64,000 nucleotides of DNA from Candidatus Nanohaloarchaea archaeon (GCA_013343275.1 CP046106.1:124001-188000); one strand, 5' to 3'. Numbered from the stretch's first letter, positions 1 to 64,000 are shown. Program-made: numbers and translations. Notes: generated by a model not told the origin, from the sequence alone.

Positions 1-831
1 TTGACCTGGAGGGACATAGATTTCAATGGAGACAAAATGTGGGTGACTGTGGATGGCAAGACAGGGGAGAGAACCATCCCTGTAAAGACTTCCATGCCTG
101 TTATGAAAGAGCTATGGGAGGAAAGCAATGCCTCACTGGATGACCCTGTCTTCTTCAAGCAGAATAGAACCTATTGCTGTCCCAAATGCTCAGGAGAAGT
201 CAACTTAGCTTCAAGCAACACCACTAAAGAATACAAGAAATACAAATGCCCTGCCTGTGAATGGGAAGGAGACTATTCTCAGGTAGAGAAAGAAGTTCAA
301 CCACTTACAGATAATGCAGTGAGAAGAATCCTGGAGAGAACTGTAGAAAGAGCAGGCCTAAATAATGAGCTTGATGATAATCCTCATGACTTTTTCAGGA
401 AAGCCAGAGCTATATACAAGGTTAGAATAGGGAATACAGAGCATCAGCTCAGAGCTTTCTTTGGATGGAGTGAAACCAGTGATGCACCAAAACACTACAT
501 TGCCCTGGTAAAAGAAGATCTAGAAAAGGCCCTGGCAGAGGAATATGGAGAAGAAGTAGAGTATGAAAATGGATATGATGAAGATGCATTAAGGCCTGTA
601 GAATGTGAGAACTGTGGCAAGATCTGCTCTGCTACTGAAGACATCTGCAAAGACTGTGGTAATGGATTGACAGAGCAAGGAGAAGAACTCACTCAAGATA
701 GTTCAGATGATCAGGATATGAGAGATTCCTTCATTGATATTGCCAGGGAGAGAGGGATGGATACAGAGGACTTTGATGAGATGCTAGACATGTCTGTAGC
801 AGAGTTCATGGAGTTCATGGCAGAAAATTAA
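1..831 (+). CDS. Tyrosine recombinase (integrase), 5'-truncated by window edge
   Basis: C-terminal catalytic part of a phage/plasmid-type tyrosine integrase. The frame is open from base 1 and starts in the strand that normally follows the first catalytic Arg (TWRDID), so the N-terminal DNA-binding domain and that Arg lie outside the window. Visible are a KTGERTIPV strand, the box-II region NPHDFFRKARA (His129, Arg133) and FGWSETSDAPKHYI with the presumed nucleophile Tyr166, the layout of haloarchaeal integrases. A zinc finger is inserted in the catalytic domain (Cys60/63, Cys83/86) and a second follows the tyrosine (Cys202/205, Cys216/219), before an acidic tail. The His-Arg spacing is HxxxR instead of the usual HxxR. 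It would catalyse integration/excision of the element that extends to its right. The attachment site was not found. Confidence 0.88.
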   Translation: MTWRDIDFNGDKMWVTVDGKTGERTIPVKTSMPVMKELWEESNASLDDPVFFKQNRTYCCPKCSGEVNLASSNTTKEYKKYKCPACEWEGDYSQVEKEVQPLTDNAVRRILERTVERAGLNNELDDNPHDFFRKARAIYKVRIGNTEHQLRAFFGWSETSDAPKHYIALVKEDLEKALAEEYGEEVEYENGYDEDALRPVECENCGKICSATEDICKDCGNGLTEQGEELTQDSSDDQDMRDSFIDIARERGMDTEDFDEMLDMSVAEFMEFMAEN

Positions 832-1427
832 TCTATTCCTATGTTAGGAGCAACTGAAACTTCTTCTAAATCATCTATTTCTATTTTTTGTCTAACCCCT
901 TTTCCTTTCAAAGGTTTAACTACCAGGTAAACTTCTTCTCCTTCTCTATTTAGAGGTTGTCTCTTCTTTATTTGTTCTTTATCGTGTTTGGAGTTATTTT
1001 CAGAATTGTGGGAATAATAATCTCCCTCTATTTTAACTATGCTAAACGCCTCTGCAGTTTCTCCTGAATAAATGTCTCTTTTTCTTTTGTAACCTGGATC
1101 TAGATGAAATTCGTCAAAAACTAGAAATGTCTTCTGCCTGCTTCCTTTACTATTAGGTCCATGTTTGATGTATAGATAAGCCTTGCACTTTTCAGCAGTA
1201 TTCCTTTCTATTATAGATAAACCTCTTGTATTCTTGATCCCAAAAGAGAATTTCTCTATAGTGCCATCCTCAACTGATATATTTCTCTTATATACCTTTT
1301 CAAGCTCTAGCTTTGGCCTTTTAAGCCATTCATTGATGAATACAGATACAAATGCACTAACAAATATTGTGATTACTGAGCTAATTCCTATGCTACTTGT
1401 TGCCAGAACTAATAGATCATCAATCAA
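828..1427 (-). CDS. Membrane-anchored protein, third gene of HEPN operon
   Basis: Protein of 199 aa that I do not recognise. One hydrophobic segment (about residues 8-32) is followed by a basic stop-transfer sequence (KRPK) and a soluble, probably beta-rich domain of about 165 residues. The start is TTG, overlapping the stop of the upstream HEPN gene in a TTGA 4-bp overlap, which argues for translational coupling. It is the last of three minus-strand genes (2544 to 828) joined by 4-bp overlaps and converges on the integrase, overlapping its stop by 4 bp. By position it is probably a partner of the HEPN protein. No enzymatic motif is visible. Confidence 0.7.
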   Translation of the reverse strand: MIDDLLVLATSSIGISSVITIFVSAFVSVFINEWLKRPKLELEKVYKRNISVEDGTIEKFSFGIKNTRGLSIIERNTAEKCKAYLYIKHGPNSKGSRQKTFLVFDEFHLDPGYKRKRDIYSGETAEAFSIVKIEGDYYSHNSENNSKHDKEQIKKRQPLNREGEEVYLVVKPLKGKGVRQKIEIDDLEEVSVAPNIGID

Positions 1428-2095
1428 GGGTTGCCCTCCTGATTTAACTCATCAACCATTGAATCCTCAATTCCAAACCAGCTCTCATAAATTTTAATTG
1501 CCTGATCAACTCGATCATAACTATCTATACCTTTGTCATTCTCAGGTGAGAAGGCCTCTATGTTGTGAGCATAGTCGTTCCTATACATTCTTATTTCATT
1601 CATTACTGAATACTCATTTTCTGAGAGAATACCATGAATCCTAGCTAGAGTTAACTTTCTTTCAAAATTCATATCGTCAAGGAATGAAGTGGAGCCATTG
1701 GTTCCTTTTTCCTCTTTCACCTCTTCCATGTGTTCTTCCAGGCTTTCTGTGACAGCAGACTCAAAGAAAGTTGAAAGCAAGATAACTACTACACTGTATT
1801 CCTCTCTCAAGTAGGATTGCTTTAGAGTATTATAGTGCCAATGTTTGGGTTCAAGTTCTAGAGAACCTAAAATTTCAGAGAAATCTGGGATATCAGGGAC
1901 TAAAAGACTAGGATCTGGTATAGCCTTGGACATCTGGTCTAAAGAGTTCTGCATCTTTAAGGCTCCATGAAGTGCATCTCCAGATTGTAAGGCTCTATGA
2001 ATTACATCCATCTGGCTTTGGAGATTATTTATACCTGCTAGAAAGTTAGAATTTGAACTATTATTTTCGTTGTCTTCTGAATTATTTTCTGTCAT
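1424..2095 (-). CDS. HEPN-domain protein (putative RNase)
   Basis: Protein of 223 aa. The N-terminus (about residues 1-20) is Asn/Ser/Glu-rich and disordered. Residues about 85-215 form an all-helical domain with the motif RNDYAH (Arg172, His177), the R-X4-H signature of HEPN ribonucleases used in toxin-antitoxin, abortive-infection and CRISPR effector proteins. A hydrophobic helix (VVVILLSTFFESAV, about 102-116) matches the first HEPN helix of uncharacterised RiboL-PSP/DUF4145-like proteins. It sits between two membrane proteins, with ATGA overlap to the upstream gene and TTGA overlap to the downstream one. The inferred role is an RNA-cutting effector in a defence or toxin operon; the family assignment rests on the motif and fold pattern only. 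Confidence 0.65.
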   Translation of the reverse strand: MTENNSEDNENNSSNSNFLAGINNLQSQMDVIHRALQSGDALHGALKMQNSLDQMSKAIPDPSLLVPDIPDFSEILGSLELEPKHWHYNTLKQSYLREEYSVVVILLSTFFESAVTESLEEHMEEVKEEKGTNGSTSFLDDMNFERKLTLARIHGILSENEYSVMNEIRMYRNDYAHNIEAFSPENDKGIDSYDRVDQAIKIYESWFGIEDSMVDELNQEGNP

Positions 2096-2544: not shown

Positions 2545-2652
2545 AAATGGTAATTGAAACTATACTATTTTCAGTTTTTACATGGAATAAGCTAAAAGCT
2601 CCTTCTTTATGGTAGGAGCAGATATTAGTTAGTTTATAATGAATTAATCTAT

Positions 2653-4846: not shown

Positions 4847-4863
4847 GATGACACCTTCTCAAA

Positions 4864-10708: not shown

Positions 10709-11044
10709 TCATTGGATCAAATCACCATTACTTGGAATACGCTTTCTGTGGTTGACTGGAGCTTTTTGCAGGCCTACAGTTCTTCTGCAGTTAGGACAGG
10801 CCCAGTTCAAAAGGTCTTTCTGAGAATCTAGTTGATCTATCAGGTGTTCAGATGCAGGATCTTGGTTAAGGAATTGCTTGAGCTTCTTCTCAAAAACTGC
10901 TCTATGAAATACTGCCTCACATTCTGGGCATTGCAGTCTTCTAGGAGCTTCAAATCTGAACAGCTCCAGGACTCTTTCAGTTTTCTCACTGGACTTGAAC
11001 TCAAAGTTTGTTGGAGTCTCTACCATTGTCCTCATCAGAATCAC
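10709..11044 (-). CDS. Zinc-ribbon protein upstream of mcm
   Basis: Protein of 111 aa with two Cys pairs (CPEC near 39-42, CPNC near 83-86) about 40 residues apart and separated by a charged helix, consistent with one zinc-binding module. No family recognised. ATGA overlap with the ribbon-helix-helix gene upstream places it in the same transcript, which then reads into the iteron region and mcm. It may be a DNA-binding or replication accessory protein. Confidence 0.65.
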   Translation of the reverse strand: MILMRTMVETPTNFEFKSSEKTERVLELFRFEAPRRLQCPECEAVFHRAVFEKKLKQFLNQDPASEHLIDQLDSQKDLLNWACPNCRRTVGLQKAPVNHRKRIPSNGDLIQ

Positions 11045-11274
11045 CTCTCCATCTCTGGAGCTGTCTGTTCTCCTGGTTTTGAGTTCATTAATTGTCTGAA
11101 GGCCATGTCAAGAAGATCTCTAACTACTTGGTTTCTGGATTTGTCTTCTGAGGTCTCTGCCAGATCTCTGATTATCTCATCTTGGTAGTTATCTATGTAG
11201 AAACCTACTTTGACTTTCTCTGATTCCTTATTCTGTAATGTAAAGCCTTTTTTAGGGTCTCTAAGCTGATACAT
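11041..11274 (-). CDS. Ribbon-helix-helix DNA-binding protein
   Basis: Protein of 77 aa. A strand (KVKVGFYID) followed by two helices (NYQDEIIRDLAETS; SRNQVVRDLLDMAFRQ) fits the ribbon-helix-helix fold of CopG/ParD/archaeal plasmid copy-control repressors. It is the likely ligand of the CTAACAT operator repeats in the divergent promoter at 11,429-11,467 and therefore probably represses its own operon and possibly mcm. Confidence 0.65.
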   Translation of the reverse strand: MYQLRDPKKGFTLQNKESEKVKVGFYIDNYQDEIIRDLAETSEDKSRNQVVRDLLDMAFRQLMNSKPGEQTAPEMER

Positions 11275-11413
11275 TGTTAGAGCTTACCTCATTGCCAGGG
11301 CCACCAACCCTGGTATCTTCAGATTTTTCTTCTCTGACTTCCTGGAGCTTCTTCTCCAGGTGTCTTTCTAGCTCCTCTCTACTAGCGCCGTCGTTTTCAG
11401 ACTCTGTTCTCAT
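11261..11413 (-). CDS. Small leader ORF of the RHH-mcm operon (50 aa)
   Basis: Short charged frame starting MRTESENDGA and rich in Glu/Arg/Lys (helical middle part). It overlaps the start of the ribbon-helix-helix gene by 14 bp. A TATA-like element (AATATAAG on the minus strand, about 11,439-11,446) lies about 29 bp before its ATG, the spacing expected for leaderless archaeal transcripts. No known family. Confidence 0.45.
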   Translation of the reverse strand: MRTESENDGASREELERHLEKKLQEVREEKSEDTRVGGPGNEVSSNNVSA

Positions 11414-11428
11414 ACTTAGTTCTTACAG

Positions 11429-11517
11429 CTAACATCATCTTATATTCGAACTAACATAGATGTTAGTAAAATAGAACTTCTTTAGAGGGTTTTTTCCTGT
11501 GAGAAAGACTTAAAATA
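11429..11517. promoter_or_regulatory. Divergent promoter with CTAACAT operator
   Basis: A perfect palindrome with 8-bp arms, ACTAACAT-AG-ATGTTAGT, lies at 11,450-11,467. A further half-site CTAACAT lies at 11,429-11,435, 22 bp (two helical turns) from the matching arm. The two sites flank the minus-strand TATA-like element. On the plus strand TTAAAATA at 11,510-11,517 is about 25 bp before the ATG at 11,539. Likely bound by the ribbon-helix-helix protein. Confidence 0.6.
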
Positions 11518-11538
11518 ATAGACTAACAAAAACTTACT

Positions 11539-12732
11539 ATGGAAGATCTGAAAACTGAAAGCGATCTGATTCCTCTAGGCTCAGTTAAAGGAGACCAGGT
11601 GAAGTTCGAACTTGCCTACATCTATACTCTAGGATTAATGCAGGAAGAAATGAAGGATCCATATCAGGATCGAATAATTGAGGAAATGAAACCGCATTTA
11701 AGGAAAATATATGGGGAAGAATGGGTTGTTAACCAAAGTAAGCCTAAATTACGGCAGAAGATTAAAAGACTCGGAGGAGGCTCAGATCTTGTCGAAAAAA
11801 CGAGAGATGAAAGAAAAGTATATCATAAGCTTTCTACAAGGGGAAAAGAGTTCTACAAGAATATTAAGCCAATATTTTCCAGTTTTTCCTCAACAGACAT
11901 TGAAGAAGCGATAATTGACGAAATGGAGACATATATCCATGGTGATCATCACTCTGAATATTACGGGCATGGATATACCTTAGACGACTTCAAGGACTTG
12001 GTGGAAAGGGATTATGATGGAGAAAGAGATTTCGACAAACTTAAGGAAGATGTGGCAACCAGGCTTGGGGTAGGGCCATCTAGAGAAGTATTTGAAAACC
12101 AGTTCTATCAGGTTTTCTCTGATATGCGAGAACAAGCTGTTCCTCGAAAAATGGCTACTTTCCAATCTAGAAAAAACCTCATTATAGAGGCTTTTGAAGA
12201 GCAAAATTCCTCAAAAGAATTGCTTTCATTTGAAGAGATTGGAAATAAGACTGAAATTCTAGATTATCTGCCAAGAAAGGTTTTGAAAAGAGATGTAGAT
12301 AGGTTGCAAGGAGTAGAACCATCTTCAGATAGGATAAAGAAGGCTGTAAAGCAATATGGAAAAAAGGAAGATGAAATACATGTGGCTGATGTAAATGAAG
12401 TATTGAGGCTCTTTAACGACTATGAAAGAGCTGAAGAGATTTTAGAACAGGCAATAAGTAATGATGCTATTTATTTAGAGAGGGAAGGTTCAAAAATCAA
12501 GTGGAAATCTTACGAGTCTCGAAGAAAAGAGAAAGAGAGTAAAGAGGATAAAGAGAATAATGGATACTTAAATTCGCATTCCTACGGTGTCGAAGATTTA
12601 GGTTTCGCTAAAAAGCATCAACTCAAACCTGTTTTGAAAGAAAAGAAAGGTAAATACAAGCTGAGTGATATGGCTAAAGAGTTCCATAGGTCAAATGTTT
12701 ATCTTCCTAACAGGGATATAATCGGTCAATAA
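11539..12732 (+). CDS. Large charged protein with winged-helix-like segments, unknown
   Basis: Protein of 397 aa. Residues about 20-110 contain a possible winged helix (KPKLRQKIKRLGGG, then RKVYHKLSTRGKEF as the wing). The remainder is helical and charged, ending in a Lys/Glu-rich linker and a small basic C-terminal domain. No family recognised and no catalytic motif seen. It is transcribed divergently from the RHH-mcm operon and shares its operator region. It lies at the left edge of the block with no AGGCCT, so it may be recent cargo or the element's own regulator. Confidence 0.65.
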   Translation: MEDLKTESDLIPLGSVKGDQVKFELAYIYTLGLMQEEMKDPYQDRIIEEMKPHLRKIYGEEWVVNQSKPKLRQKIKRLGGGSDLVEKTRDERKVYHKLSTRGKEFYKNIKPIFSSFSSTDIEEAIIDEMETYIHGDHHSEYYGHGYTLDDFKDLVERDYDGERDFDKLKEDVATRLGVGPSREVFENQFYQVFSDMREQAVPRKMATFQSRKNLIIEAFEEQNSSKELLSFEEIGNKTEILDYLPRKVLKRDVDRLQGVEPSSDRIKKAVKQYGKKEDEIHVADVNEVLRLFNDYERAEEILEQAISNDAIYLEREGSKIKWKSYESRRKEKESKEDKENNGYLNSHSYGVEDLGFAKKHQLKPVLKEKKGKYKLSDMAKEFHRSNVYLPNRDIIGQ

Positions 12733-12752
12733 GAGAAGCACTATTTCATATA

Positions 12753-13142
12753 TTATCTCTTTCTATATCTCCACTTATTCTCTCCAGGCATCAAAGGGGA
12801 TAGAATCTTCTTATTGTAGTTCTTACTACTTTGATTTAGCTTCTTCAATCCTTTTTTAGCAACACCTGCAGAGAATCCATAGTCAGCTCCTAAAGCAGTT
12901 GCTAAAGTCTTGAGATTCTTCATTGCTAGACCCATTCTGGTTACTTCAGGACCTATTCTGTCAGTATTATGTTTGAATGTCAGAAGGAACTTATCTTCTT
13001 CTGAGTGTAGCCTGCCTGGTAGATAGTGTCTGTTCAGTGCTAGAGTTCCTTTACTATTCTTCGCTATTTCTAATCTGCCTGCAGGTTTGGCCTCTTGGGG
13101 AACTTTCTCTTTTATTCCAATTTTATTGTAAATTCTTCTCAT
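12753..13142 (-). CDS. Basic protein paired with AbiTii-like gene
   Basis: Very basic protein of 129 aa (Lys/Arg-rich, pI clearly above its acidic neighbours) with no recognised fold; nucleic-acid binding is possible. The start ATG overlaps the stop of the AbiTii-like gene by 4 bp, so the two are co-translated. In an otherwise acidic proteome its charge stands out and fits an RNA/DNA-binding partner or toxin. Confidence 0.6.
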   Translation of the reverse strand: MRRIYNKIGIKEKVPQEAKPAGRLEIAKNSKGTLALNRHYLPGRLHSEEDKFLLTFKHNTDRIGPEVTRMGLAMKNLKTLATALGADYGFSAGVAKKGLKKLNQSSKNYNKKILSPLMPGENKWRYRKR

Positions 13143-13930
13143 TCTTGAACCTCCTTTGCTCTAGAAACAAAGTCGTTAATTTCTCTCCTAGCTCCATCTA
13201 AGAGAGATTCTAACTCGCTTACTTTGGTTATGTAAGGAACTTTTTCTCCTGGGTTTACTCCAAGCTCATCCACCATTACCTGCATTGGAGGTGCTTTCAT
13301 CATTATTTTGTCTGACTCAGCTTTCTCAACTGCTGACTCTACCATATCTAGAGGTTGGGAAATATACATTTCTAGAGGTAGCTCCTCTATCTGTCCACTA
13401 TCGTCCATTAATCTAAATTTCATGGATAATTTCCTGTAATCTTTGTAGTAGTGAGCAGAAGTATCTTCTACCTCTGTTACTCCACTGCTTTCTTCATCTC
13501 TGAATCCATGAACCTCTTTCTCCAGCCATTCAACTTCTTTTTTCATATCTAACTGCTTAGCAAGCCTTAAAGCCATTCTAGCTATAGTGGAGACATCTTC
13601 ATCTGAGTCTATCTTGCTTTCAATTTTCTTTAGAAGTTTTCTTTCATCAGAGGTCTTTTCTTCTTCCTCTTTTCCAGATTCTTCCTCAAATTTCTGCTCA
13701 ATCCTGTCAAAGTTAATGTCTCCTTGGGCTTGGAATGCGTTAACTCCTTCAGCATCTTCAAATATCTGCTCTTGAGACCTATCTATCAGGTTTTTGATCT
13801 CATAACCTACTTTACCTACTCCAAGAAATCCTAGAGTGGTAACAATTAGAGATAGTATTCCTATGGCATGCTCTTGTAGGTATACTGCTAGTGAAATATT
13901 TTCACATCCTTTGGGAATTTTAATATTCAA
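13139..13930 (-). CDS. Membrane-anchored AbiTii-like abortive-infection protein
   Basis: Protein of 263 aa. A hydrophobic helix (about 22-42) is followed by FQAQGDINFDRIEQ, a linker of the kind seen in effector-associated proteins. A helical domain (about 95-145) then carries LLKKIESKI, ALRLAKQLDMKKEVEWLEKEVHGF, matching the AbiTii N-terminal signature (a leading helix, then a Lys-rich helix ending in W-L-x-x-E-x-x-G). A beta/alpha C-terminal part follows (YRKLSMKFRLMDDS). AbiTii domains occur in abortive-infection and phage-defence loci. Coupled by 4-bp overlap to the basic protein downstream. Defence function is inferred from the domain. Confidence 0.65.
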   Translation of the reverse strand: MNIKIPKGCENISLAVYLQEHAIGILSLIVTTLGFLGVGKVGYEIKNLIDRSQEQIFEDAEGVNAFQAQGDINFDRIEQKFEEESGKEEEEKTSDERKLLKKIESKIDSDEDVSTIARMALRLAKQLDMKKEVEWLEKEVHGFRDEESSGVTEVEDTSAHYYKDYRKLSMKFRLMDDSGQIEELPLEMYISQPLDMVESAVEKAESDKIMMKAPPMQVMVDELGVNPGEKVPYITKVSELESLLDGARREINDFVSRAKEVQE

Positions 13931-13944
13931 AGTAGAGTTTTCTT

Positions 13945-14346
13945 TTAAGTTCCAAATTCTTCCTTGTAATGATCATAACTCGTTAGAATATCCATTGACA
14001 ATCCTATCAACATGCAAATACCATTATTTTCTACACCTGTCTTTCTTTTCAAGTTTCTCTTACTTGCTAGACCTCCCCACCGCTGCATGAGCCATTCATG
14101 GTAGGAGTCCATATTTCCTTGTTTTATAGTAGTTAAATCTATTTCCTCTTCAAATTCTTCCTCAAGTAATGCCGTTACACGGTAGTTCTCAATGGCTTCT
14201 ATAGTCTTATCTAAGTCTAGTTCTTCTCCTTTATCGAGCAATATATTCAGTCGACTAACATGTTCTCGCCATAGACTTGGATATTCCATGAAATATCCTC
14301 TAAACCCGAAATTTAAGACTCTTTTGACTATTGTGGTTAGATGCAT
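13945..14346 (-). CDS. Unknown protein upstream of AbiTii-like gene
   Basis: Helical protein of 133 aa with an acidic middle (LLEEEFEEEIDL) and a Trp-rich stretch (SYHEWLMQRWGG). No family recognised. It lies 14 bp upstream of the AbiTii-like gene, on the same strand, and may be the first gene of that operon. A later in-frame Met (residue 20) could be the true start. Confidence 0.55.
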   Translation of the reverse strand: MHLTTIVKRVLNFGFRGYFMEYPSLWREHVSRLNILLDKGEELDLDKTIEAIENYRVTALLEEEFEEEIDLTTIKQGNMDSYHEWLMQRWGGLASKRNLKRKTGVENNGICMLIGLSMDILTSYDHYKEEFGT

Positions 14347-14491
14347 ATGATTAGAAATTCTCTGTATCGATTACAGTAGCAAATAAATCCCCTGACCTTT
14401 GATTGCGCTCTCCAATTATAGTAATCTGTCTGTTAATTGATAACTCTCCAATATAGACGACCTTTCATTACAAGTCCTTTCTGAGTTAGGT
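14347..14491. other. Intergenic spacer
   Basis: A/T-rich spacer between two minus-strand operons. It presumably carries the promoter of the 14,346 gene and the end of the membrane-protein operon; no specific element identified. Confidence 0.35.
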
Positions 14492-15172
14492 TCATTCTTC
14501 GTCACCAAAAACTTTGGACTTAAAGCGGGATTTATAGTAGCCTATAGGGCCAGCAGGCGTTGTTGTTTCTTCTATTTCAAAACCTAAAAATTCTGTGCTA
14601 AATATTATGAAGAAAGAATACAACATTGCTACAGAGAAAGTCGATGATGCGCCCAAAATAAGCAAGTAGGTGAAGACAAAAATTATTGCAGTTTCTGTGC
14701 CCTGAAAAAGGGTTAATTCAGCCAACGTCATCCCAAATTCTACAGTAGTTGAAACTTCTAGGTCCTGAGGTATTAAGTTAGCTCCTGCTATAATAACTGC
14801 AAAAATGTGTAACAAAAGTATCTGACCTCCTGTATACAGAAAGTTATGAGCTGTTCTAACATAGTGATACTCCTCCAGGCCACTAGAAAATTTGCTCAGA
14901 GGCTCTTCAAATGCCAGGATAACACTTCCTGCTGTAAAACACAGGAAAGAAAGATTGAATATAAGGCTCCCAAATCTCTGAAATTCTATCACGGCTATAC
15001 CAAGGGCTAAAAGTGCAGTGACTTGAATTAAGAGAAAAAATATGTTTGCAAAAACCTTGTGCGAGAGAAATTCTTTTGCTATCTGCTTCCAAGTCTGGAG
15101 ATCTCTCAGAGACCCATATTCATCCTTTCTCCAGCTCCACGGCGATCTTACTTTTCTATTATCATCACTCAT
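14492..15172 (-). CDS. Polytopic membrane protein, last gene of AbrB operon
   Basis: Protein of 226 aa with a cytoplasmic N-terminus (about 1-38) and five hydrophobic segments (about 40-60, 68-88, 112-130, 145-165 and 175-195). It ends in a basic/acidic tail. No transport signature recognised. It overlaps the upstream gene by 8 bp and belongs to the four-gene operon starting at 16,399. Confidence 0.7.
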   Translation of the reverse strand: MSDDNRKVRSPWSWRKDEYGSLRDLQTWKQIAKEFLSHKVFANIFFLLIQVTALLALGIAVIEFQRFGSLIFNLSFLCFTAGSVILAFEEPLSKFSSGLEEYHYVRTAHNFLYTGGQILLLHIFAVIIAGANLIPQDLEVSTTVEFGMTLAELTLFQGTETAIIFVFTYLLILGASSTFSVAMLYSFFIIFSTEFLGFEIEETTTPAGPIGYYKSRFKSKVFGDEE

Positions 15173-15689
15173 CTTCAGTTTTCTGAGCCTCCTTAGACAC
15201 TAATGGAATAGTCCATTTTGTTTGATTGGCAACATCTTCAAGGTTATCGCCATTTATTTCCAGTGCTACATATATTACTGCTATCATGAATATAGTGACT
15301 ATAATTGTGGTAAGATAATCTGAACCCGTAGGCTGCCCTCTAAGAAGTAAAGTTGTAATTTGAACAAAGGAGAAGGCGACTAGTGTAATTGTGAACAAGG
15401 TCTCCACTGCGGAGGACTTTTTCTCCTGCTCCATCAATTTCTGATTAAACTGTCTATTTTTCTCAATTTCCTCTAGGAGCGTGTAGTCTTGGAGCTTATC
15501 TATGCCATTATGAGTTAGAACTATGCTATGATTCCAATCAACTAAGTTATAGTCCTCAAGATATTCTATATCCGCTTTACTCACTTCTCTACCATCTACT
15601 TCATCGAAACTCCTGATAGTTGGGGCAGCACCAGTTCTCTCCTTGTGATTCCATATTTCTCTCAGAATTTTTAGGTGTCTCTCATCCAT
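15165..15689 (-). CDS. Winged-helix protein with two transmembrane helices
   Basis: Protein of 174 aa. The N-terminal part (about 1-65) looks like a winged helix (HLKILREIWNHKERTG, VSKADIEYLEDYNLVDW, LTHNGIDKL). A coiled segment follows, then two membrane helices (about 95-113 and 125-145) and a short tail. A DNA-binding domain tied to the membrane suggests a one-component membrane-bound regulator or a sensor for the neighbouring membrane proteins. Middle gene of the AbrB-led operon. Confidence 0.65.
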   Translation of the reverse strand: MDERHLKILREIWNHKERTGAAPTIRSFDEVDGREVSKADIEYLEDYNLVDWNHSIVLTHNGIDKLQDYTLLEEIEKNRQFNQKLMEQEKKSSAVETLFTITLVAFSFVQITTLLLRGQPTGSDYLTTIIVTIFMIAVIYVALEINGDNLEDVANQTKWTIPLVSKEAQKTEDE

Positions 15690-16256
15690 TTAGACCACTT
15701 CAAAACTCTTTACTACAGTTTCTGTATGCTTTTCCCCATCCTCCAAGTATTCGATCAGGATTTGAACTCTCCATTCCCCTTTTTTGGTAGGTTTATACCA
15801 AGAACTGTAAGGATTTGAAGCATTAGTTGTATTATATATCTTGGTGCTTCTTGTCTGCCATCCTTTATGTCTCGTATTGCCATTTAACCAGTCTACAGAT
15901 ACATTATAGGGGAGTTCCTTGGTGTTCCATACCCTAAAATAGATTGTAATATTGTCTCCTGGACTATAGATTTCTCTATCTCCAATTATCTTGGAGTTCG
16001 ATATTTTTAGCTCAGGTTCATATTCTGTCTGAGGTTGTTCTGCCCAAACTGGCTTTATGTAAGGCTCTGAGCCAATAAAATCTATATCAGGAAGTTCTCC
16101 AGTAACATAGACTCCTGCTATAAGATGTCTGGCATAAGGGGAAGTAAAAGGAACAGTAATAATAAATACGATCAAACCACCTATAACAGCAGAAATGAGC
16201 TGTTTTCTAGATACATGAGAGAAAAACTTGTCCTTTAATTTACTATAATATCCCAT
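15690..16256 (-). CDS. Membrane-anchored exported beta-sandwich protein
   Basis: Protein of 188 aa. A basic N-terminus and one hydrophobic helix (about 20-38) are followed by an exported-looking domain. It has several N-x-S/T sequons (NIT, NVS, NTT, NAS) and a beta-sandwich pattern (ELKISNSKI, NITIYFRVWN, GEWRVQILIEYL) as in CARDB/immunoglobulin-like surface proteins. Its ATG overlaps the TAA of the AbrB gene upstream (TAATG) and its stop abuts the next gene, so the operon is tight. Confidence 0.7.
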   Translation of the reverse strand: MGYYSKLKDKFFSHVSRKQLISAVIGGLIVFIITVPFTSPYARHLIAGVYVTGELPDIDFIGSEPYIKPVWAEQPQTEYEPELKISNSKIIGDREIYSPGDNITIYFRVWNTKELPYNVSVDWLNGNTRHKGWQTRSTKIYNTTNASNPYSSWYKPTKKGEWRVQILIEYLEDGEKHTETVVKSFEVV

Positions 16257-16399
16257 TATTCAACCTCCTTCAGGACTAACTTTCCCTCTTTATTTAAAAC
16301 AAACTCTAGTTCTTGACCATTTTCCCATCCTTTGGCTTTTCTCATTGATTTGGGAACTGTGATTACTGCTTGGCCATTGGGTTTGACTTGGAGCTTCAT
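16256..16399 (-). CDS. AbrB/SpoVT-type DNA-binding protein (47 aa)
   Basis: Tiny swapped-hairpin AbrB protein. It begins MKLQVKPNGQAVITVPKSMR and continues with a GWENGQELEFVLN turn and LVLKEV, the canonical SpoVT/AbrB/MazE layout. It heads a four-gene operon of membrane proteins. An inverted pair ACAGT/ACTGT (16,400-16,416) directly abuts its start codon, a plausible autoregulatory operator. It could be an antitoxin-type partner to the downstream genes or a simple operon repressor. Confidence 0.82.
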   Translation of the reverse strand: MKLQVKPNGQAVITVPKSMRKAKGWENGQELEFVLNKEGKLVLKEVE

Positions 16400-16854
16400 A
16401 CAGTTATGGTTACTGTTAAAAAGTTAAGAACTTATTGCGTTAATAGAAGGTAGGAAGGCCTTATAATAAACAGCGAGGTTGAAGAAGGGCCGGTCCACTA
16501 CTCTACGTGTTCATTTACATTACTCGCTTTCTGAACCACTTCTTCGTCAACCTAAATAAACCGCTCGAAAAACTACGCTCAACCACGGGCGAAGAGGTTC
16601 CGGCAAGTGGGGAAAAGCGATTCTTCTCTTCAGAGCGAGAGAACAAGCTATCAAGAGAAGGAGCTGAATGATGCCTATGACTTAGGAAACTCTGTGAGCA
16701 GGTTCCCTCCTCTGCGAGGATTAGATCCTATGCGCGCGCAGACCTCAAAATTTCTGGAATCTTCGTAATAAATCAGAAGTTTACGTTCTATGCGCATAGG
16801 CGGGCGTAGAAATAATGAGAAATCTTATAGTATTTATTTTATACTCTTGTAGAT
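16400..16854. other. Gene-free junction between acquired block and Mrr locus
   Basis: No credible ORF. It contains one AGGCCT at 16,456, the first after a 5.7-kb gap. Near-complementary arms AGGTTGAAGAAG and CTTCTTCGTCAACCT are separated by about 50 nt (possible structured RNA). A copy of AAGGGCCGGTCCA lies at 16,485-16,497, repeated at 17,903. Local palindromes include TATGCGCATA near 16,790. It is likely a recombination junction or the right border of the acquired block. Confidence 0.4.
16485..16497 (+). repeat. 13-bp direct repeat, copy 1
   Basis: AAGGGCCGGTCCA, identical to copy 2 at 17,903-17,915. The pair brackets the Mrr nuclease and its small partner. Confidence 0.4.
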
Positions 16855-31679: not shown

Positions 31680-32200
31680 CTCTCAATGTAGAGAAATACC
31701 TGGAACTCTACAGTGAGACACAGGGCCTCATGCCAGAGAAACTGCAGGAATACGGCGAAAAATATCGGGAGCAAGGCCATCTGACTCAGGATCAGCTATA
31801 TGAGATAGCGTATGAGTCATCGACTAGAAGCGCCTACCACGTCAGAAAGAATCCGGAGAAAATCTGTCGGGAGGTAACAACCAACATTCTTGGGGCCGAA
31901 GGCGATTTCTCGAAAATCGCACTGGCCTCGTCGCTGAAAGGGTTCAAGGCCCCAACAGCTTCCTGCATACTCACCGCACTAAACCCGGAGAAACACGCAG
32001 TAGTTGACACCCGGGTATGGGCCTCGCTAGAACGGTTTGGAGGCCTGGAAAGGAGAAAAGAGAGCTTCGGCCCGTTCGACTACATAGAAATGATAAAGCC
32101 TATTCGGGAAATCGCGGAGGAGCAAGGCTATTCAGCAGCCGAGATAGGATATGCGCTGTTCGCCCACGACTACGACAAAAGAGAAGGAACACTCCACTGA
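31676..32200 (+). CDS. HhH-GPD-like protein
   Basis: Protein of 174 aa. The pattern LKGFKAPTASCILTALNPEKHAVVDTRVWASLERFG resembles the helix-hairpin-helix plus Asp segment of endonuclease III/AlkA-type base-excision glycosylases (hairpin, then V-V-D-x-R-V-W). The usual Fe-S cysteines are absent. Translationally coupled to the HD gene. DNA-repair role inferred, moderate certainty. Confidence 0.5.
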   Translation: MTLNVEKYLELYSETQGLMPEKLQEYGEKYREQGHLTQDQLYEIAYESSTRSAYHVRKNPEKICREVTTNILGAEGDFSKIALASSLKGFKAPTASCILTALNPEKHAVVDTRVWASLERFGGLERRKESFGPFDYIEMIKPIREIAEEQGYSAAEIGYALFAHDYDKREGTLH

Positions 32201-42364: not shown

Positions 42365-43501
42365 CTAGAAAGTGTTTATCTGGTTCTCCACGCATTTCTT
42401 GGTTATTTCATCGATACTGTCGAGATGTCTCTGGATTATTTCCTGGAATTCTTCTTTCTCTGCGGGTGTTTCGACCTCGATCAGCTTCGGGTCGTCTATC
42501 GGAGCCCCTATCTGTGAGAGCATCTTCACCTGAGCGTATTCTCCGGTCTCTTCGTGTATGCTTTTCGCTATCTCACGTGACAGCAGGTTGTAGATCTTCC
42601 CGACGTGGGTAACAGGGTTTTTACCGGAGGCAGCCTCCATGCTCATCGATCTGTGCGGTGTTATCAGGCCGTTAACACGGTTTCCTCTGCCAACCGATCC
42701 ATCGTCACCCATCTCTGCCGAGGTCCCTGTAACAGTCATGTAGATCTCTTCCTCCTCTATATCATCGGCTGTATTGACATGTACTTCGGGATCCAGGCCG
42801 TTCTCACGCGCCTTTCTCTCGGCAACATCTCTCACGTTTTCGATATGGTTTCTGTAGTCATCCATGGAACCGGTTCGTGAGGAAATTGCTGGAGCTGCAA
42901 CAGTAAGAGTTATGCCCTCGCCCTGTCTCAAACCCATGACTTTCACGTCCTCTCCGCACTGATCAAGCTGTCTAACACCTTTCTCCACCTGCTTCACGGT
43001 TTTCTCTGCCGGTGAGAGAGGTGCGTGGCCTACGCCAAAGCTGGTGTCGTTCGACATTCTCTGTTCTCTCTCGTAGACTGCTGCCAGATCAGTAGACGTC
43101 TCTCCAATCCGGGACTTGAACTCTATTTGCGAAGGATCCAGGGCCTTGAAATTATCTTCAATATACTCTTTCGCGGCGTCCAGCGCTATCTTGTCGACGG
43201 GAATCTCTTCACCTTCAAACTGCTTCGTCGCACGGCCTGTCAACAGAATAAAGATAGGTTCTATAACTTCTCCACTATTGAACTCTGGATTGGACTCTCC
43301 AGCTACCAGCTGGGCCTCGTCTGTGTTGTGATGCAGTATGTGGCCGAATCTGTCTCTGTACTCTCTGGAGAGCTCGCGGGAGATCTTCTCGGCGATGCCG
43401 TCGCAGATGCTGTCTGGATGGCCAAGCCCTTTCCGCTCTACCAGTTCTACTTCTCTGTTTTTGACAGGGTCTGACTGTGTCTCGGTTCTTGAGATATTCA
43501 T
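42365..43501 (-). CDS. mat: S-adenosylmethionine synthetase, archaeal type
   Basis: Start at ATG 43,501 (MNISRTETQ). Protein of 378 aa with [46 protein letters not shown] and [20 protein letters not shown], typical of the archaeal MAT family, which differs from bacterial MetK. Makes SAM from Met and ATP. The PCMT gene, whose product uses SAM, lies 40 bp upstream on the same strand. Confidence 0.96.
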
Positions 43502-43541
43502 GTTGAGTACTGGTCTCTGTGGTTTCAATAATCTAGTGGTC

Positions 43542-44177
43542 TCAGAGGTTTTCTTCACGGTATTCTTCAGGTAATTCAGGCCCTTCATCCTCTTCCTCGA
43601 AAGGCATGAACCGGACCGGAGAGTGATCTGTTATCTCGCCTTTCTCGTACTTCCGGAGAACCTGTCCGTGATCCACGTAGACCGGTGCAACGATGATTCC
43701 ATCCTCGGTAAGATGTCTGCGTGCCTCATCGAAAGAGTCGATAGCACAGGAGTACAGTATCCTGTCGAATTCACCTTCTACAGGATTGAAACCGTTTCCA
43801 TGGAGAATTTTTACGTTGTCGTAATCCAGTCTCTCACGGGAGTTCTCGATTACTTCCTCGATGATGTCTACTCCGATAACCTCTCCATCTGTCAACTCGG
43901 CAAGTAGAGCTACCTGGTACCCGGAACCGGAACCAATCTCAATCACTCGATCATTTTCCCCGACATCCAGCAACTCAGTGTTCTCCGCGATAACACTGGG
44001 CTGAGAAGTCACTGAACCGCCGGCTATCGGCAGAGGAGTATCAGCATAGGCCTTATCTTTATGCGGCTCAGGGACAAAATCCTTCCTGTCCACGTTCCTG
44101 AAGGCCTGCTCCACTCTATCCGACTCTATAATACCTCTTTCAACCAGACGGTCAACCATCTCATCGTTAGACTCCAT
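43542..44177 (-). CDS. pcm: Protein-L-isoaspartate O-methyltransferase
   Basis: Protein of 211 aa. SQPSVIAENTELL, VIEIGSGSGYQVALLAEL (SAM site) and GEVIGVDIIEEV match PCMT. It repairs isoaspartyl residues in aged proteins. Followed by the SAM synthetase gene. Confidence 0.93.
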   Translation of the reverse strand: MESNDEMVDRLVERGIIESDRVEQAFRNVDRKDFVPEPHKDKAYADTPLPIAGGSVTSQPSVIAENTELLDVGENDRVIEIGSGSGYQVALLAELTDGEVIGVDIIEEVIENSRERLDYDNVKILHGNGFNPVEGEFDRILYSCAIDSFDEARRHLTEDGIIVAPVYVDHGQVLRKYEKGEITDHSPVRFMPFEEEDEGPELPEEYREENL

Positions 44178-44264
44178 AAAAGGCCTTATTCTGGGCCTAG
44201 AGTTTTCAGTTTTGTGACCGGGGATAGAACGCGGAGAAGTTAAGAAAAAAGGAAAGAGAGGATT

Positions 44265-44777
44265 CTATTCCAGCTTGCTGTCGATACTCTGAAGGAGCTT
44301 CCTTATCTCTTTCAGTTCCTGAAGCTGTTCGTCTGAGCCGGTTTCTTTCTTACCGGTGCTCTGGCCTTTCTCCTTTTTCAGGTGTCTGTTGATGATCTGT
44401 TCGACCTCTCGCGGGTTGTCGATGCTGTTGAAACGCATCTCGACTCCCTGACCTCCAGCAGTGGAGATTTCGATATTTCCGTAGTCGAAGTAGCTGCCGA
44501 GGACTCCCTGACTGAAGCTGATGTTCTGTACCTTGTCGAAACCGATCTTCTGCACGTTACGCGAGAGAACACCGGACTTCCTGTAAAGGCCTTGATCGGT
44601 AACCACGAAGTACGTGTTTTTGACGCTGTAGTAAGCGCCAACGATAATCGCAATACCGATAAGGAACGGAATCAGCGGAATACCGACGATAACAGCTGGC
44701 AAAATGCTTTTGATACGAGGCTGGCCCTGCCACAGAACCTCCTCATCATCGTCCAGATTAACCCAGTCAACTGACAT
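44265..44777 (-). CDS. PH-domain membrane protein (YdbS-like)
   Basis: Protein of 170 aa. EEVLWQGQPRI, two adjacent hydrophobic helices (about 26-52) and TYFVVTDQGLYRKSGVLSRNVQKI, the hallmark of bacterial PH (bPH2) YdbS/YdbT proteins. C-terminal coiled coil. Membrane-associated; function in this family is not defined. Confidence 0.85.
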   Translation of the reverse strand: MSVDWVNLDDDEEVLWQGQPRIKSILPAVIVGIPLIPFLIGIAIIVGAYYSVKNTYFVVTDQGLYRKSGVLSRNVQKIGFDKVQNISFSQGVLGSYFDYGNIEISTAGGQGVEMRFNSIDNPREVEQIINRHLKKEKGQSTGKKETGSDEQLQELKEIRKLLQSIDSKLE

Positions 44778-44820
44778 AACAGAAAAATATTCGAGAGAAA
44801 GAAAAATTAAACTAACGGCC

Positions 44821-45438
44821 TCACTCCTCTATAATACTGGAGGCCTTCTCAATCTCATACTCTACAATGCCGTGATTGGACCCTTCCATAATGTACTTCT
44901 CGATCTCTCCGTTCAACTCCTCTAAAACTTTCTCAGTGGCGTTAACTCTTTCAAGAGGGATGTGAGGATCGTTATCAGAACAGCCGATGAACACAGGGGT
45001 CTCTTCCAGGTCACCGCTGAAATCTCCGATCTCTTCTCCAATAAGGCCTCCGCTGAACAGGATCGCTCCGCCGTATCTGTCAGGATTCGATGCTGTATAC
45101 TCTGAGGCCAGGCAGGCTCCCTGAGAGAAACCAAGGAGATATACGTTGTCTTTTCCAACTTTTTCAGAGGCCTTCTCTACCAGCGTGTCTACTTTGCGCA
45201 GTGCGGAGTCCAGATGCGGTTGATTTTTCTCCCGTGGCTCAAGAAAGCTGTGGGGATACCAGGTCCTGCGAGAGGCCTGAGGAGCAAGATACGCTGCCTC
45301 AGGAAGCTGTTCGGAAAGCTGGATCATTCCTCCTGCGGAAGCGCCACGACCGTGAAGCATGATAACGGCCTTTTCCGCTTCCTTCAGATCAAGGCCTGCG
45401 GTCTGTACCGGTTGATCTTCGTGTATCTCTTCTGTCAC
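44821..45438 (-). CDS. Phospholipase/carboxylesterase, MhqD-like
   Basis: Protein of 205 aa. Alpha/beta hydrolase with VIMLHGRGASAGG, LLGFSQGACLA (nucleophile Ser), SDNDPHIPL (Asp) and GSNHGI (His), complete triad. It overlaps the dioxygenase gene by 4 bp. The pairing of a ring-cleaving dioxygenase and this esterase recalls the mhqOD quinone-resistance genes of Bacillus; it probably hydrolyses the ring-cleavage product. Confidence 0.85.
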   Translation of the reverse strand: MTEEIHEDQPVQTAGLDLKEAEKAVIMLHGRGASAGGMIQLSEQLPEAAYLAPQASRRTWYPHSFLEPREKNQPHLDSALRKVDTLVEKASEKVGKDNVYLLGFSQGACLASEYTASNPDRYGGAILFSGGLIGEEIGDFSGDLEETPVFIGCSDNDPHIPLERVNATEKVLEELNGEIEKYIMEGSNHGIVEYEIEKASSIIEE

Positions 45439-46364
45439 TGGTTGATCTCCTCCTCTCTGAACTCTGGAAGGTTCTCTAGAATCTCCTCTCTACGATCCTG
45501 AAGCTCTTCAGGCAGCACGAAGTTTGTTCCGAGCTCCTCTACAGACTCATCTGCGGTATAGCCAGGCCCCATGGTGGAGAACTCGAAGAGAACTCCGGTA
45601 GGCATCCGGCAGTAGATCGAGGAGAAGTACTTCCTGCTGATAACTGGTGATGGCTGAAGGCCGATTCTCTGCAGTTGATCTCTCCATTTCTCGAGTTCTT
45701 GCTCGCTTTCTGCAGCTTTAAACGCGGTGTGGTGGACACTGCCTCGGCCCATCCTGCCGTGTTCAGAAGTCTCGATTATCTCAACTCCAGAACCATCTTC
45801 TGCCTCGTAGTAAGTATCTTCAAGGCCTTTAATCTCTTCCAGATCCATTATATCAAGTACTTTCTCCAAGTCCTCAGAGCTGTGGGCCTGTACTGTTACG
45901 TGGTGCATTCCACGGATCTGGTTTTCTTCTGGAACAGTGCTGTCGGGCCATGGCGTGTAGTCTTCGGTATCTTCCGGGATCAGTCGAAGTGAGAGGCCGT
46001 CAGGGTCTTCAAAACTTAGAGTTTCTTTCCCATGCCATTTTTCATTTTCAAAGTCGAGGCCTTCATCTTCCAGTCTATCTTTCCAGTAATCTACTGAGTT
46101 CTCGGGTATTCTGAGGCCTAGCTCTGTGATCATTCCGGCGCCGGGCTTTCCTTTTTGCTGGGCCATTCCGGGGAAGAATGTTACGCTGGTGCCGGGGGAG
46201 CCTTCTCTGTCGCCGTAGAATAGGTGGTACATCTCCGGTGCGTCGTGGTTGACAGTTTTCTTGACCATGCGGAGGCCTAGAGTGTTTACGTAGAACTTGG
46301 CGTTTTCTGTTGGGTCGCCTGCGATCGCTGTGAAATGGTGGAGGCCTTTAACTTCTGGTGTCAT
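45435..46364 (-). CDS. Ring-cleaving dioxygenase, glyoxalase fold (MhqO-like)
   Basis: Protein of 309 aa with two VOC modules: GLHHFTAIAGDPTENAKFY in the first, GMHHVTVQAHSSEDLE in the second, plus a later HHTAF (about 219) and FEFST with the metal Glu. These match the extradiol dioxygenase/MhqO family that opens hydroquinone rings. First gene of the two-gene minus-strand unit; the HxlR regulator is divergent, so quinone stress is the likely trigger. Confidence 0.88.
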   Translation of the reverse strand: MTPEVKGLHHFTAIAGDPTENAKFYVNTLGLRMVKKTVNHDAPEMYHLFYGDREGSPGTSVTFFPGMAQQKGKPGAGMITELGLRIPENSVDYWKDRLEDEGLDFENEKWHGKETLSFEDPDGLSLRLIPEDTEDYTPWPDSTVPEENQIRGMHHVTVQAHSSEDLEKVLDIMDLEEIKGLEDTYYEAEDGSGVEIIETSEHGRMGRGSVHHTAFKAAESEQELEKWRDQLQRIGLQPSPVISRKYFSSIYCRMPTGVLFEFSTMGPGYTADESVEELGTNFVLPEELQDRREEILENLPEFREEEINQ

Positions 46365-46373
46365 AATGTTATC

Positions 46374-46391
46374 TGGTTTGAAAACGAACCA
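46374..46391. promoter_or_regulatory. Operator palindrome of the mhq-like cluster
   Basis: TGGTTTGAAAACGAACCA is a near-perfect palindrome between the divergent genes. The plus-strand TATA-like ATTAAATA follows about 30 bp before the regulator start. Likely HxlR site. Confidence 0.55.
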
Positions 46392-46424
46392 TTAAATAAA
46401 GTGAAGGGACACAGGTGTAACCAC

Positions 46425-46763
46425 ATGCAACAGGAAAACGCTGGGCCGTGCTCGATAGTCGAATCGTTCGACATGATTGGCTCGAAATGGAAACTGATAG
46501 TACTCAACGACCTGCAGGGCGGAGAGAAAAGGTTCAACCAGCTGAAGAGATCGACAGAGGCCTCCTCGAGGACGCTTTCACGTGTACTTCAGAACCTGAA
46601 GGGTGAAGGCCTTGTAGAGAAAAGAGTCGAAGATGGAAACCCGGTAGCAACTTTTTACTCGTTGACCGAGGCCGGAAAATCGCTGTGCCCGGTATTCGAA
46701 GAGATAGAGGACTGGGCTGATGAATGGCTGAACGAGGCAGAAATTAAAAATTCGGAGGCCTGA
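46425..46763 (+). CDS. HxlR-family transcriptional regulator
   Basis: Start at ATG 46,425 (MQQENAGPCS); the longer frame overlaps the operator. Protein of 112 aa with GPCSIVESFDMIGSKWKLIVLNDLQGG, FNQLKRSTEASSRTLSRVLQNL (recognition helix) and a YSLTEAGKSL wing. The single Cys (CSI) is where HxlR/HypR proteins sense quinones or oxidants. Likely represses the divergent dioxygenase/esterase pair. Confidence 0.9.
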   Translation: MQQENAGPCSIVESFDMIGSKWKLIVLNDLQGGEKRFNQLKRSTEASSRTLSRVLQNLKGEGLVEKRVEDGNPVATFYSLTEAGKSLCPVFEEIEDWADEWLNEAEIKNSEA

Positions 46764-46772
46764 AACTTTTTC

Positions 46773-47339
46773 ATGAACTTCAAAGAAAAGTACTCAGATT
46801 TCTTCGAAACACTGCATCCGAACTACTGGGACGAGGACCGGTTCGTACCGGCGGTAGGCCCGGAAGACGCGGATGTAATGATGATAGGCGAGGCCCCGGG
46901 AGCGAACGAAGTGGAGGAAGGAGAGCCTTTCGTCGGAAGAGCTGGAGAACGACTCAATGATATACTTCACGATATCGATGTTGATCGGGACGAAATCTAT
47001 ATTACCAATCTGGTGAAGATCAGGCCTCCTGACAACCGCGATCCGAAAAGCGATGAGATCGAGGCCTGGGCACCGCTTCTCGAACAGGAAATCGAGAACG
47101 TCGAGCCGGATATAATCGTGACTCTGGGGAACTTCGCATCCAAGCACATGCTCGATACTTCCAAAGGAATCAGCAAGATTCACGGCCGGATATTCACACG
47201 TGAGGGCCAGAAAATCATGCCGGTATACCATCCGGCAGCAACACTGTACGACCGATCTAAAGGCCCGGAACTTGAGAAAGACCTGAGAAAGGCCTTTGGG
47301 AAAGAAGAGTCTGGTCAGAAGAAGTTCACTGATTTCTAG
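46773..47339 (+). CDS. Uracil-DNA glycosylase, family 4-like, without Fe-S cysteines
   Basis: Protein of 188 aa. GEAPGANEVEEGEPFVGRAGERL (motif A, 39-61), ITNLVKIRPPDNRDP and YHPAATLY (motif B) define UDG family 4. Family 4 binds a [4Fe-4S] cluster with four Cys; here the Cys in VKxRPP is Ile83, the one after the NRDP region is Trp99, and the protein contains no cysteine at all. Removes uracil from DNA, presumably with a cluster-free fold. Confidence 0.88.
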   Translation: MNFKEKYSDFFETLHPNYWDEDRFVPAVGPEDADVMMIGEAPGANEVEEGEPFVGRAGERLNDILHDIDVDRDEIYITNLVKIRPPDNRDPKSDEIEAWAPLLEQEIENVEPDIIVTLGNFASKHMLDTSKGISKIHGRIFTREGQKIMPVYHPAATLYDRSKGPELEKDLRKAFGKEESGQKKFTDF

Positions 47340-60135: not shown

Positions 60136-60242
60136 GTTAGCCCGCTAAATATTCTACACCTGTTTTTATTTTCTCTGGCAGAACCAAACTAAATTCTGGA
60201 CTGCGGAAAATGCTTTTAACATTCCGAGTCTGAAATCGGTGT

Positions 60243-63200: not shown

Positions 63201-63269
63201 GAGTTCTCAGGAAGCGTCGAGTTCGAGGATAGAAAAGTTTCCTACAGCTTTTCGAGGCCTGTGGAGTAA
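60243..63269 (+). CDS. ileS: Isoleucyl-tRNA synthetase
   Basis: Protein of 1008 aa. HMGTG (HIGH site, His50), CP1 editing domain, QRYWGIPLPIWEC, Zn-binding CEEC region, VLDVWFDSGVAPWA, KEMSKSKGI (near 578) and an anticodon-binding helical domain. Full length. Charges tRNA-Ile. Confidence 0.97.
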   Translation: MTDYNPEKIEETVLNQWNENDTRKKVLNRNKGNERFYFLDGPPYASGNIHMGTGLNKILKDFYLRFHRKLGYNVHSQPGYDTHGLPIENKVEEEKGFNSKKEIEEFGVENFIKECQKFVDQHIDQMNDDFEDMGVWMDWENPYVTYHDYYIEGAWQTFKEAYQKDFLYEDQYPVHICTRCETAVAYNEIEYTKLNDPEVYVAMPVRDSDTEFLIWTTTPWTLPANAAIMVGPSYKYSLVQFNDRKVWMASELVDEIMDKFGIEEYDILKEVEGSELEGLEYDHPLENIVPAQDKVQGRVVLSERYVDLEGGTGLVHSAPGHGKEDYEVGQENDIKQISPVDLKGEFTEEAGKYEGTYVKDADPEIMDDLADQLLYSGEIRHEYPKCWRCDTPLLQLSIPQWFFGATKFREELIESNEEVNWVPDWAGQKFHEWLEQLGDWPVSRQRYWGIPLPIWECNDCDHTKVIGDRSELPEVPDDLHRPYIDNVELDCEECGGTMERIPDVLDVWFDSGVAPWASLKHPEIDFSFEEHNPVDLELEGFDQIRGWWNSQFITSHMTYDQKPFENVIYHGKVMLDGKEMSKSKGIVVSPGEAIEKYGRDVLRFFILSGDPSDDLNFTWDKMEENQEFMNILWNTYNYKETYTEERERPEDLNIEDEWILSRLNTLIEDVREYSTEPNYQAFKAAQEVERFTKEDLSRGYIKMIRDRLRPGYEGDDRKAAEWTLQKVCDELLQVMSPFLPYLTEYLYSGEADSIHMLDYPEVEEEFIDEALEREMELFQDIEEAVARLRQEKGIKLRHPVKKVTVSGSEEVREAVESLEELLEERLNTRDVSFEKVELDYEVKLDYAKAGPELGGDVKSVESSLAEMDHNDLADKIEDGESIEVGGHELSSDMFEVRSFVPEGMEGEEFSEGTVYIDDEMTEELKDEALVAEVLRELQQARKEAELDVEDTVDVSFGGDVGPVQDNIETVRDRVNVASIDFEDRDLEFSGSVEFEDRKVSYSFSRPVE

Positions 63270-63285
63270 CAGAGGTGATCCAGCA

Positions 63286-64000
63286 ATGACAGAAGAAGTA
63301 GGGCCAGCTGTAGATTTCATTAAAGGTATTGACGAAGATGACAGGGTTGTGATTATCCATCACTGGGATATGGATGGCACATCCAGCTCAGTTATCACCT
63401 CCAGGATCTTGGAAGAGGTTAGAGGCCGTCCAGCGGACGAAGTCTCTATTCCTGAGGAAAGAGCCTACCATCTAGGTGAGGACGATCACAGGAAACTGGA
63501 GGATGCTGACAAACTGATTGTTCTAGACTTCAACCTGAAGGCCGACGAACTTGAAGAGCTGAACCAGGATCAGGACGTGCTGGTAGTTGACCACCACAGC
63601 TTTGATCGTGTGCCTGATGTTCCGTTCGTCAATCCGAGAGAGTTCGATGATGAAGTCTATGTACCGTGCAGCAAGATCTGTCTCGATATTGCAGAACAGT
63701 TCGGTATAAGAGAGCAGGTTAAATGGATTGCAGGCCTCGGAGTAATACAGGATTTCGGAGTAGATTCCTGCCCGGAGCTTTTCGAGGAACTGAAACAGGA
63801 GTACAAGGAATTCTTCCCGGAAGAACTCAGTCAACAACAGCTGGCGAAAAACTGCGAATACGGCCGGTACAGTAGTGTTCTTAACATCAAACCGTACCGT
63901 GACTCCGCACACTTTGCAAAACTCGCATATGAGGCCCTGATGAAATCAGAGGACTTGAAAGAGTTAGAGGCCCAAGAGGAGTACCGTCAGGTCTATGAGG
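63286..64000 (+). CDS. DHH-family phosphoesterase (RecJ-like), 3'-truncated by window edge
   Basis: ATG 63,286 (MTEEVGPAVD) begins 16 bp after the IleRS stop and the frame is open to the window end (238 codons visible). HHWDMDGTSSS (DHH motif I), VLDFNLK (II) and LVVDHHSFD (III, DHH) are seen, typical of archaeal RecJ/single-strand exonuclease or oligoribonuclease proteins. Possibly co-transcribed with ileS. Confidence 0.88.
   Translation, partial: MTEEVGPAVDFIKGIDEDDRVVIIHHWDMDGTSSSVITSRILEEVRGRPADEVSIPEERAYHLGEDDHRKLEDADKLIVLDFNLKADELEELNQDQDVLVVDHHSFDRVPDVPFVNPREFDDEVYVPCSKICLDIAEQFGIREQVKWIAGLGVIQDFGVDSCPELFEELKQEYKEFFPEELSQQQLAKNCEYGRYSSVLNIKPYRDSAHFAKLAYEALMKSEDLKELEAQEEYRQVYE

Follow-up and report, generated by a model that had tools for sequence, protein, structure and literature searches.

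The hexameric palindrome AGGCCT is iterated throughout the genome of a nanohaloarchaeon and several of its relatives. This phenomenon is real, strong and lineage-specific, and something acting on the DNA itself keeps AGGCCT in these genomes. We put at slightly below one half the probability that AGGCCT is the selected recognition site of a sequence-specific protein that binds or processes DNA. Such a bound protein would be the cause of the enrichment, and selection rather than biased repair would keep the sites.

Abundance and distribution of AGGCCT

The window, i.e. the whole stretch of 64,000 nucleotides analyzed here, represents bases 124,001-188,000 of a 915,886-bp single-contig genome (G000). 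Its 144 copies of AGGCCT compare with 12.6 expected from base composition (11.4-fold), and the runner-up palindromic hexamer, CTGCAG, lies far below at 3.0-fold. The genome as a whole carries 1,803 copies, about 9-10 times expectation, compared with 419 of the reversed word TCCGGA. A preliminary description of the window had proposed an excess of about 25-fold. This value holds for the densest 3.3 kb, where the exact count agrees with the copy number given there (Table 1), but for the window and the genome generally it has to be lowered to 9- to 11-fold. Each of twenty 20-kb samples across the genome contained 26-49 copies, and the enrichment is therefore global.

In 400 kb evenly sampled from G000, we counted 768 copies against 87, 112 and 254 expected from Markov models of order 0, 1 and 2, respectively. 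The comparison with Markov expectation thus gave two answers: low-order models under-predict AGGCCT 3- to 7-fold, whereas an order-4 model expects 775 copies and thereby reaches the observed number, since the excess already lies in AGGCC and GGCCT. The 8.8-fold excess in this sample (next palindrome, 2.6-fold) is a gross over-representation as in the class of highly iterated palindromes (HIPs), and AGGCCT, with its core GGCC at length 4, was the top over-represented palindrome at lengths 4, 6 and 8.

The enrichment extends to related genomes. The family set comprised 19 genomes (G000-G018), including Ca. Nanohalovita haloferacivicina BNXNv (G001), a congener of G000, and Ca. Nanohalococcus occultus SVXNc (G006; both PMC10266531). 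Seven of them are enriched, with 1,803 (G000), 2,466 (G001), 3,601 (G002), 4,489 (G003), 762 (G011), 2,095 (G016) and 1,481 (G018) copies, and the remaining twelve contain 55-338 each. The densest is G003, 'Nanohaloarchaea archaeon SG9' (CP012986.1; SG9 below), with 4 copies per kb, and enrichment among the relatives reaches 24-fold. Counts across the phylum revealed no AGGCCT enrichment in other nanohaloarchaeal families. In a tree of RpoB fragments, 11 genomes without enrichment, nine from the family and two outgroups, share a supported branch; the opposite side holds the enriched genomes along with the non-enriched G010 (presumably Ca. Nanohalobium constans LC1Nh), G012 and G017, while the row of G018 was too incomplete for placement. 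This pattern requires three changes of enrichment state and suggests, though it does not prove, an old origin of the enrichment followed by losses. In a scan of a genome collection, dense non-repeat AGGCCT was found, among the at least 120 matches listed, only at two nanohaloarchaeal loci; the best viral contigs among the matches listed represented repeats or local clusters, or contained other palindromes of equal enrichment. The literature searched yielded no prior account of AGGCCT iteration in nanohaloarchaea, in agreement with the preliminary description, which knew of none.

Table 1. Location and properties of the features described in the text
Feature	Location	Strand	Remarks
AGGCCT, dispersed	1..64000	.	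144 copies, mean one per 444 bp (exact count)
Densest stretch	43501..46800	.	17 AGGCCT in 3.3 kb (exact count)
AGGCCT-free low-GC island	10770..16455	.	5,686-bp gap, 37.7% GC
AbiTii-like gene	13139-13930	-	AbiTii Pfam match, 3.8e-10; inside the AGGCCT-free island
Mrr-type restriction endonuclease gene	16855-17556	+	flanks the AGGCCT-free island
AGGCCT-free stretch with primase-MCM fusion protein	L363:144-13583 (G001)		13.4 kb
Stretch with large surface-protein-like ORFs	L025:6217-16057 (G000)		9.8 kb; 41 GGCC, 0 AGGCCT against about 12 expected (genome ratio)
Eco57I-like Type IIG restriction-modification gene	L417:8424-12579 (SG9, 481,001-501,000)		split into two frames; break at CA-dinucleotide repeat encoding THTHTH
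NgoPII-type GGCC restriction gene and neighbouring C5 methyltransferase	L423:2488-4407 (G010); L424:7276-9175 (G008)		fits strong GGCC avoidance

Reading frames, protein composition and conservation

Simple ORF calls in G000 assigned 124, 252 and 407 copies to the three reading frames. Compared with shuffles in which protein sequence and codon usage stay unchanged, every frame shows a 4.4- to 4.8-fold excess; the 65 kb between genes contain 126 copies (10.6-fold; 26.7-fold between the genes of SG9). AGGCCT is therefore present both within genes, whatever the frame, and between them, as HIPs are, and the combination of an all-frame excess over codon shuffles with an about 11-fold intergenic enrichment excludes codon or amino-acid bias as its cause, just as the preliminary description had argued from copies in all three frames and in intergenic DNA. 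Protein composition instead follows the motif. Arg-Pro pairs occur at 1.54 times expectation in SG9 compared to 0.75-0.88 in non-enriched relatives, i.e. they are about doubled, and Gly-Leu pairs at 1.42 compared to 0.98-1.04. AGGCCT thus alters the proteins of its carriers.

Between G000 and G001 (147 ortholog pairs, median protein identity 82%), 155 of 265 sites are conserved (58%, against ∼20-24%; 22% for all hexamers), which places AGGCCT first among 113 common hexamers. Between SG9 and G000, conservation amounts to 29% and 57%, depending on the direction, against a background of 12%; the non-enriched G004 retains only 2% of the SG9 sites, compared to the 29% in G000. In three-way alignments, ancestral sites (present in SG9 and one member of the genus) were retained in the other member in 30/48 (63%) and 30/41 (73%) cases, against 0.44-0.45 for controls, an excess based on only 41-48 sites per comparison. 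Sites common to G000 and G001 were found in SG9 in 30 of 47 cases (control, 0.25). We set aside an estimate of ancestral density obtained in the style of capture-recapture, since it is inflated by gains. Taken together, presence in all frames and between genes, conservation at orthologous sites and occurrence in other family members bear out the earlier proposal of a DNA-level signal comparable to HIP1.

The AGGCCT-free stretches at 10,770-16,455 of the window and in G001 coincide with islands (Table 1), which is compatible with slow accumulation of sites after arrival. The island in the window probably represents recently acquired DNA. The segment from 10,770 to 17,556, with its AbiTii-like and Mrr-type genes, is likely a defence island, and the 13.4-kb stretch of G001 is probably an integrated mobile element. 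As a separate observation, TGCA reaches only 0.10 of expectation in SVXNc (samples L068-L070), perhaps tied to the GDGCHC methylation system published for this strain.

Specificity and mutual exclusion of the sites

The form of the motif differs between lineages. G002, SG9, G016 and G018 show a sharp word, with AGGCCT enriched 18- to 24-fold and one-off words at most modestly more frequent than expected. G000 and G001, in contrast, also show an excess of the one-sided words AGGCCN/NGGCCT (2.3- to 3.7-fold), in all frames and between genes (2.6- to 3.3-fold); the corresponding values in SG9 are 1.7-fold between genes and about 1 in frames. One-off deviations are concentrated at the first and last base in G000 and G001, not clearly so in G002, G003 and G016. 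A longer hidden motif was ruled out: the flanks combine independently, and there is no extension beyond six bases. The non-enriched G008, G009 and G010 avoid even the core GGCC (0.14- to 0.28-fold), and in G008 and G010 a C5 methyltransferase adjoins an NgoPII-type restriction gene (Table 1).

The sites also exclude each other. Apart from a near-random spacing at larger distances, all three well-sampled genomes showed a depletion of pairs less than about 45 bp apart (283 seen, 514 expected), the relative frequency of pairs being about 0.2 for sites in contact and reaching 1 at a distance of about 50 bp. The deficit persists against codon shuffles and in-gene, in-frame re-placement (28/54, 52/92 and 89/168 seen/expected in the three genomes, about 3.3, 4.5 and 6.5 standard deviations less than in-gene placement would give). 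Inverted repeats of 6 bp with equal GC content and other palindromes showed no close-pair depletion, leaving aside the 'other palindrome' row of G001, where runs of N distort the result. One-sided sites are likewise excluded from the neighbourhood of AGGCCT in G000 and G001, while in SG9 they are not. In precisely those genomes in which they are strongly enriched, the one-sided words thus act like genuine sites. Hairpin avoidance was rejected as the reason, because generic inverted repeats are not depleted and the hairpin potential of one-sided sites, which is the same in both lineages, does not explain the difference in exclusion. We also rejected helical or other periodicity, as no period except that of the codon (3) was prominent in all genomes.

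The mutual exclusion of sites less than about 45 bp apart is in favour of a site bound by a protein and may be read as the footprint, about 45 bp wide, of a putative bound protein. It is the strongest hint against hairpins and against pure mutation bias. Biased mutation or repair could make and restore AGGCCT as a by-product without function, and the amino-acid distortion and the presence in all contexts would fit such a drive; exceptional HIPs, too, may be epiphenomena according to Elhai (PMC4390886). We nevertheless regard this explanation as unlikely: exclusion within 45 bp is not expected from a simple bias, the deamination neighbours AGGTCT/AGACCT are not depleted, and none of the 19 family genomes contains MutS, which Elhai's model requires. 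A context-dependent bias could also give all-frame enrichment and amino-acid change, and it is mainly the mutual exclusion that stands against it.

The DNA uptake sequences of Neisseria and Haemophilus resemble AGGCCT in their thousands of dispersed copies; unlike this 6-bp palindrome, they are 9-12 bp long, non-palindromic and tied to competence. It is very unlikely that AGGCCT serves as an uptake or self-recognition signal sustained by molecular drive in cells importing environmental DNA. Such uptake has been proposed for nanohaloarchaea (PMC10266531), and the genome-wide spread, cross-genus persistence and absence from apparently foreign islands recall uptake sequences, but 6 bp discriminate poorly, and if fragments of kilobase size are taken up, no exclusion on the scale of 45 bp is expected.

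Candidate proteins and comparison with known iterated palindromes

Whole-genome searches for methyltransferase families did not reveal a cognate enzyme in G000 and SG9, the complete genomes with enrichment. PF00145 (C5 methylase) gave no match in the enriched G000, G001, G002, G003 and G011, and among G000-G012 such enzymes were found only in G006, G008 and G010. PF02086 (D12) had no match over the cut-off in any of the 19 genomes. The only strong match to PF01555 among enriched genomes was found in G001, and neither G000 nor SG9 contains a PF00145, PF01555 or PF02086 match over the cut-off; below the threshold, PF01555 matched a single protein of G000, which resembles THUMP/UPF0020 RNA methylases. 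For PF02384 (N6_Mtase), G000 gave this THUMP protein again and one weak match below the cut-off, while G001 encodes a full-length N6 methylase. In SG9, PF02384 matched the broken Eco57I-like gene, which is split at a CA repeat, a possible phase-variable switch. DndC (TIGR03183) of the Dnd phosphorothioate system and MutS (MutS_V; positive in 11 of 14 controls) are both absent from 19/19 family genomes. SAM synthetase did not correlate with enrichment, and an OGG-like protein (window 31676-32200) is found in enriched and non-enriched genomes alike. Genes present only in enriched genomes, as judged by gene content and synteny in partial sequence of the relatives, were mostly housekeeping genes without a convincing candidate.

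These results weaken the methylation mark considered in the preliminary description, and of its repair mark they exclude the MutS-dependent form. A modification at AGGCCT by an unrecognized enzyme, or by one supplied by the haloarchaeal host, could still underlie the repeats as for cyanobacterial HIPs, which we consider rather unlikely. The motif has the form typical of Type II methyltransferase sites, a strict 6-bp palindrome; its relaxation to one-sided words in one genus is reminiscent of drift of enzyme specificity, and methyltransferase export from a nanohaloarchaeon to its host has been reported (PMC11001535). Besides the missing enzymes, the published methylome of a relative argues against it, containing GDGCHC only, in a species that is non-enriched. 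Methylation of the same word, a further point in favour of this explanation, is known from Alcanivorax borkumensis SK2, where nearly all of 1,674 AGGCCT are methylated (PMC12128166). This and StuI-type systems are restriction systems, whose sites are usually avoided rather than amplified; AGGCCT is enriched, and the genomes rich in it yielded no cognate restriction-modification gene pair. M.Ssp6803II of Synechocystis (PMC6560206) shares the GGCC core, but there a known m4C methyltransferase marks GGCC, whereas neither G000 nor SG9 yielded an m4C/D12-type enzyme.

The closest parallel is provided by the cyanobacterial HIPs (HIP1, GCGATCGC, and its alternates; PMC4390886). Like AGGCCT, they are short dispersed palindromes, a single word dominating in each genome, that lie within as well as between genes, are conserved, have a patchy distribution among relatives and are replaced or lost in some lineages, and in the genus of G000 the one-off variants are likewise biased to the outer bases. 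They differ in their carriers (HIP1 occurs in cyanobacteria and is lost by symbiotic ones; AGGCCT in archaeal symbionts), in density (1-2 per kb compared to up to 4) and in GC content (at least 75% in Elhai's alternates compared to 67%), and exclusion within 45 bp is demonstrated here for AGGCCT. Elhai's model of HIPs combines a cognate methyltransferase with MutS-based (GmeC-dependent) mismatch repair (PMC4390886). Since G000 and SG9 lack a cognate methyltransferase of the tested families and MutS is absent, this model cannot operate here as written.

The selected recognition site favoured above would be read by a protein that recognizes the strict 6-bp palindrome, probably as a dimer, and that may act no more than about once in every 45 bp. 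In the genus of G000 it would also accept AGGCCN/NGGCCT, while in SG9 all six bases would be needed. Sites would accumulate and persist genome-wide within the limits of protein-coding constraint, be thin in newly arrived DNA and be missing in some lineages, including G010 with its GGCC restriction system. Candidate tasks are chromosome packing, entry of recombination or repair, and self-marking. The size of the site speaks against this protein: 6 bp without extended flanks is less than an ordinary helix-turn-helix regulator usually reads and fits restriction or modification enzymes better. More tentatively, and with somewhat less confidence than in the recognition site itself, AGGCCT may represent methylation-independent archaeal iterated palindromes: a lattice of thousands of protein-altering sites for a putative binding or nicking protein with a ∼45-bp footprint and a specificity that has drifted between genera.

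The function of iterated palindromes has been open for decades, with the link to a methyltransferase as the main published clue. AGGCCT behaves as a highly iterated palindrome yet lacks, as far as tested, this one known correlate of the class, and it does so at higher density in archaea with genomes of about 1 Mb. With neither this link nor MutS, another cause is needed, at least here. Mutual exclusion and the lineage-specific difference in specificity provide new measurable handles, and because the carrier Nanohalovita haloferacivicina BNXNv is available in co-culture, both methylation and protein binding at AGGCCT are directly testable.
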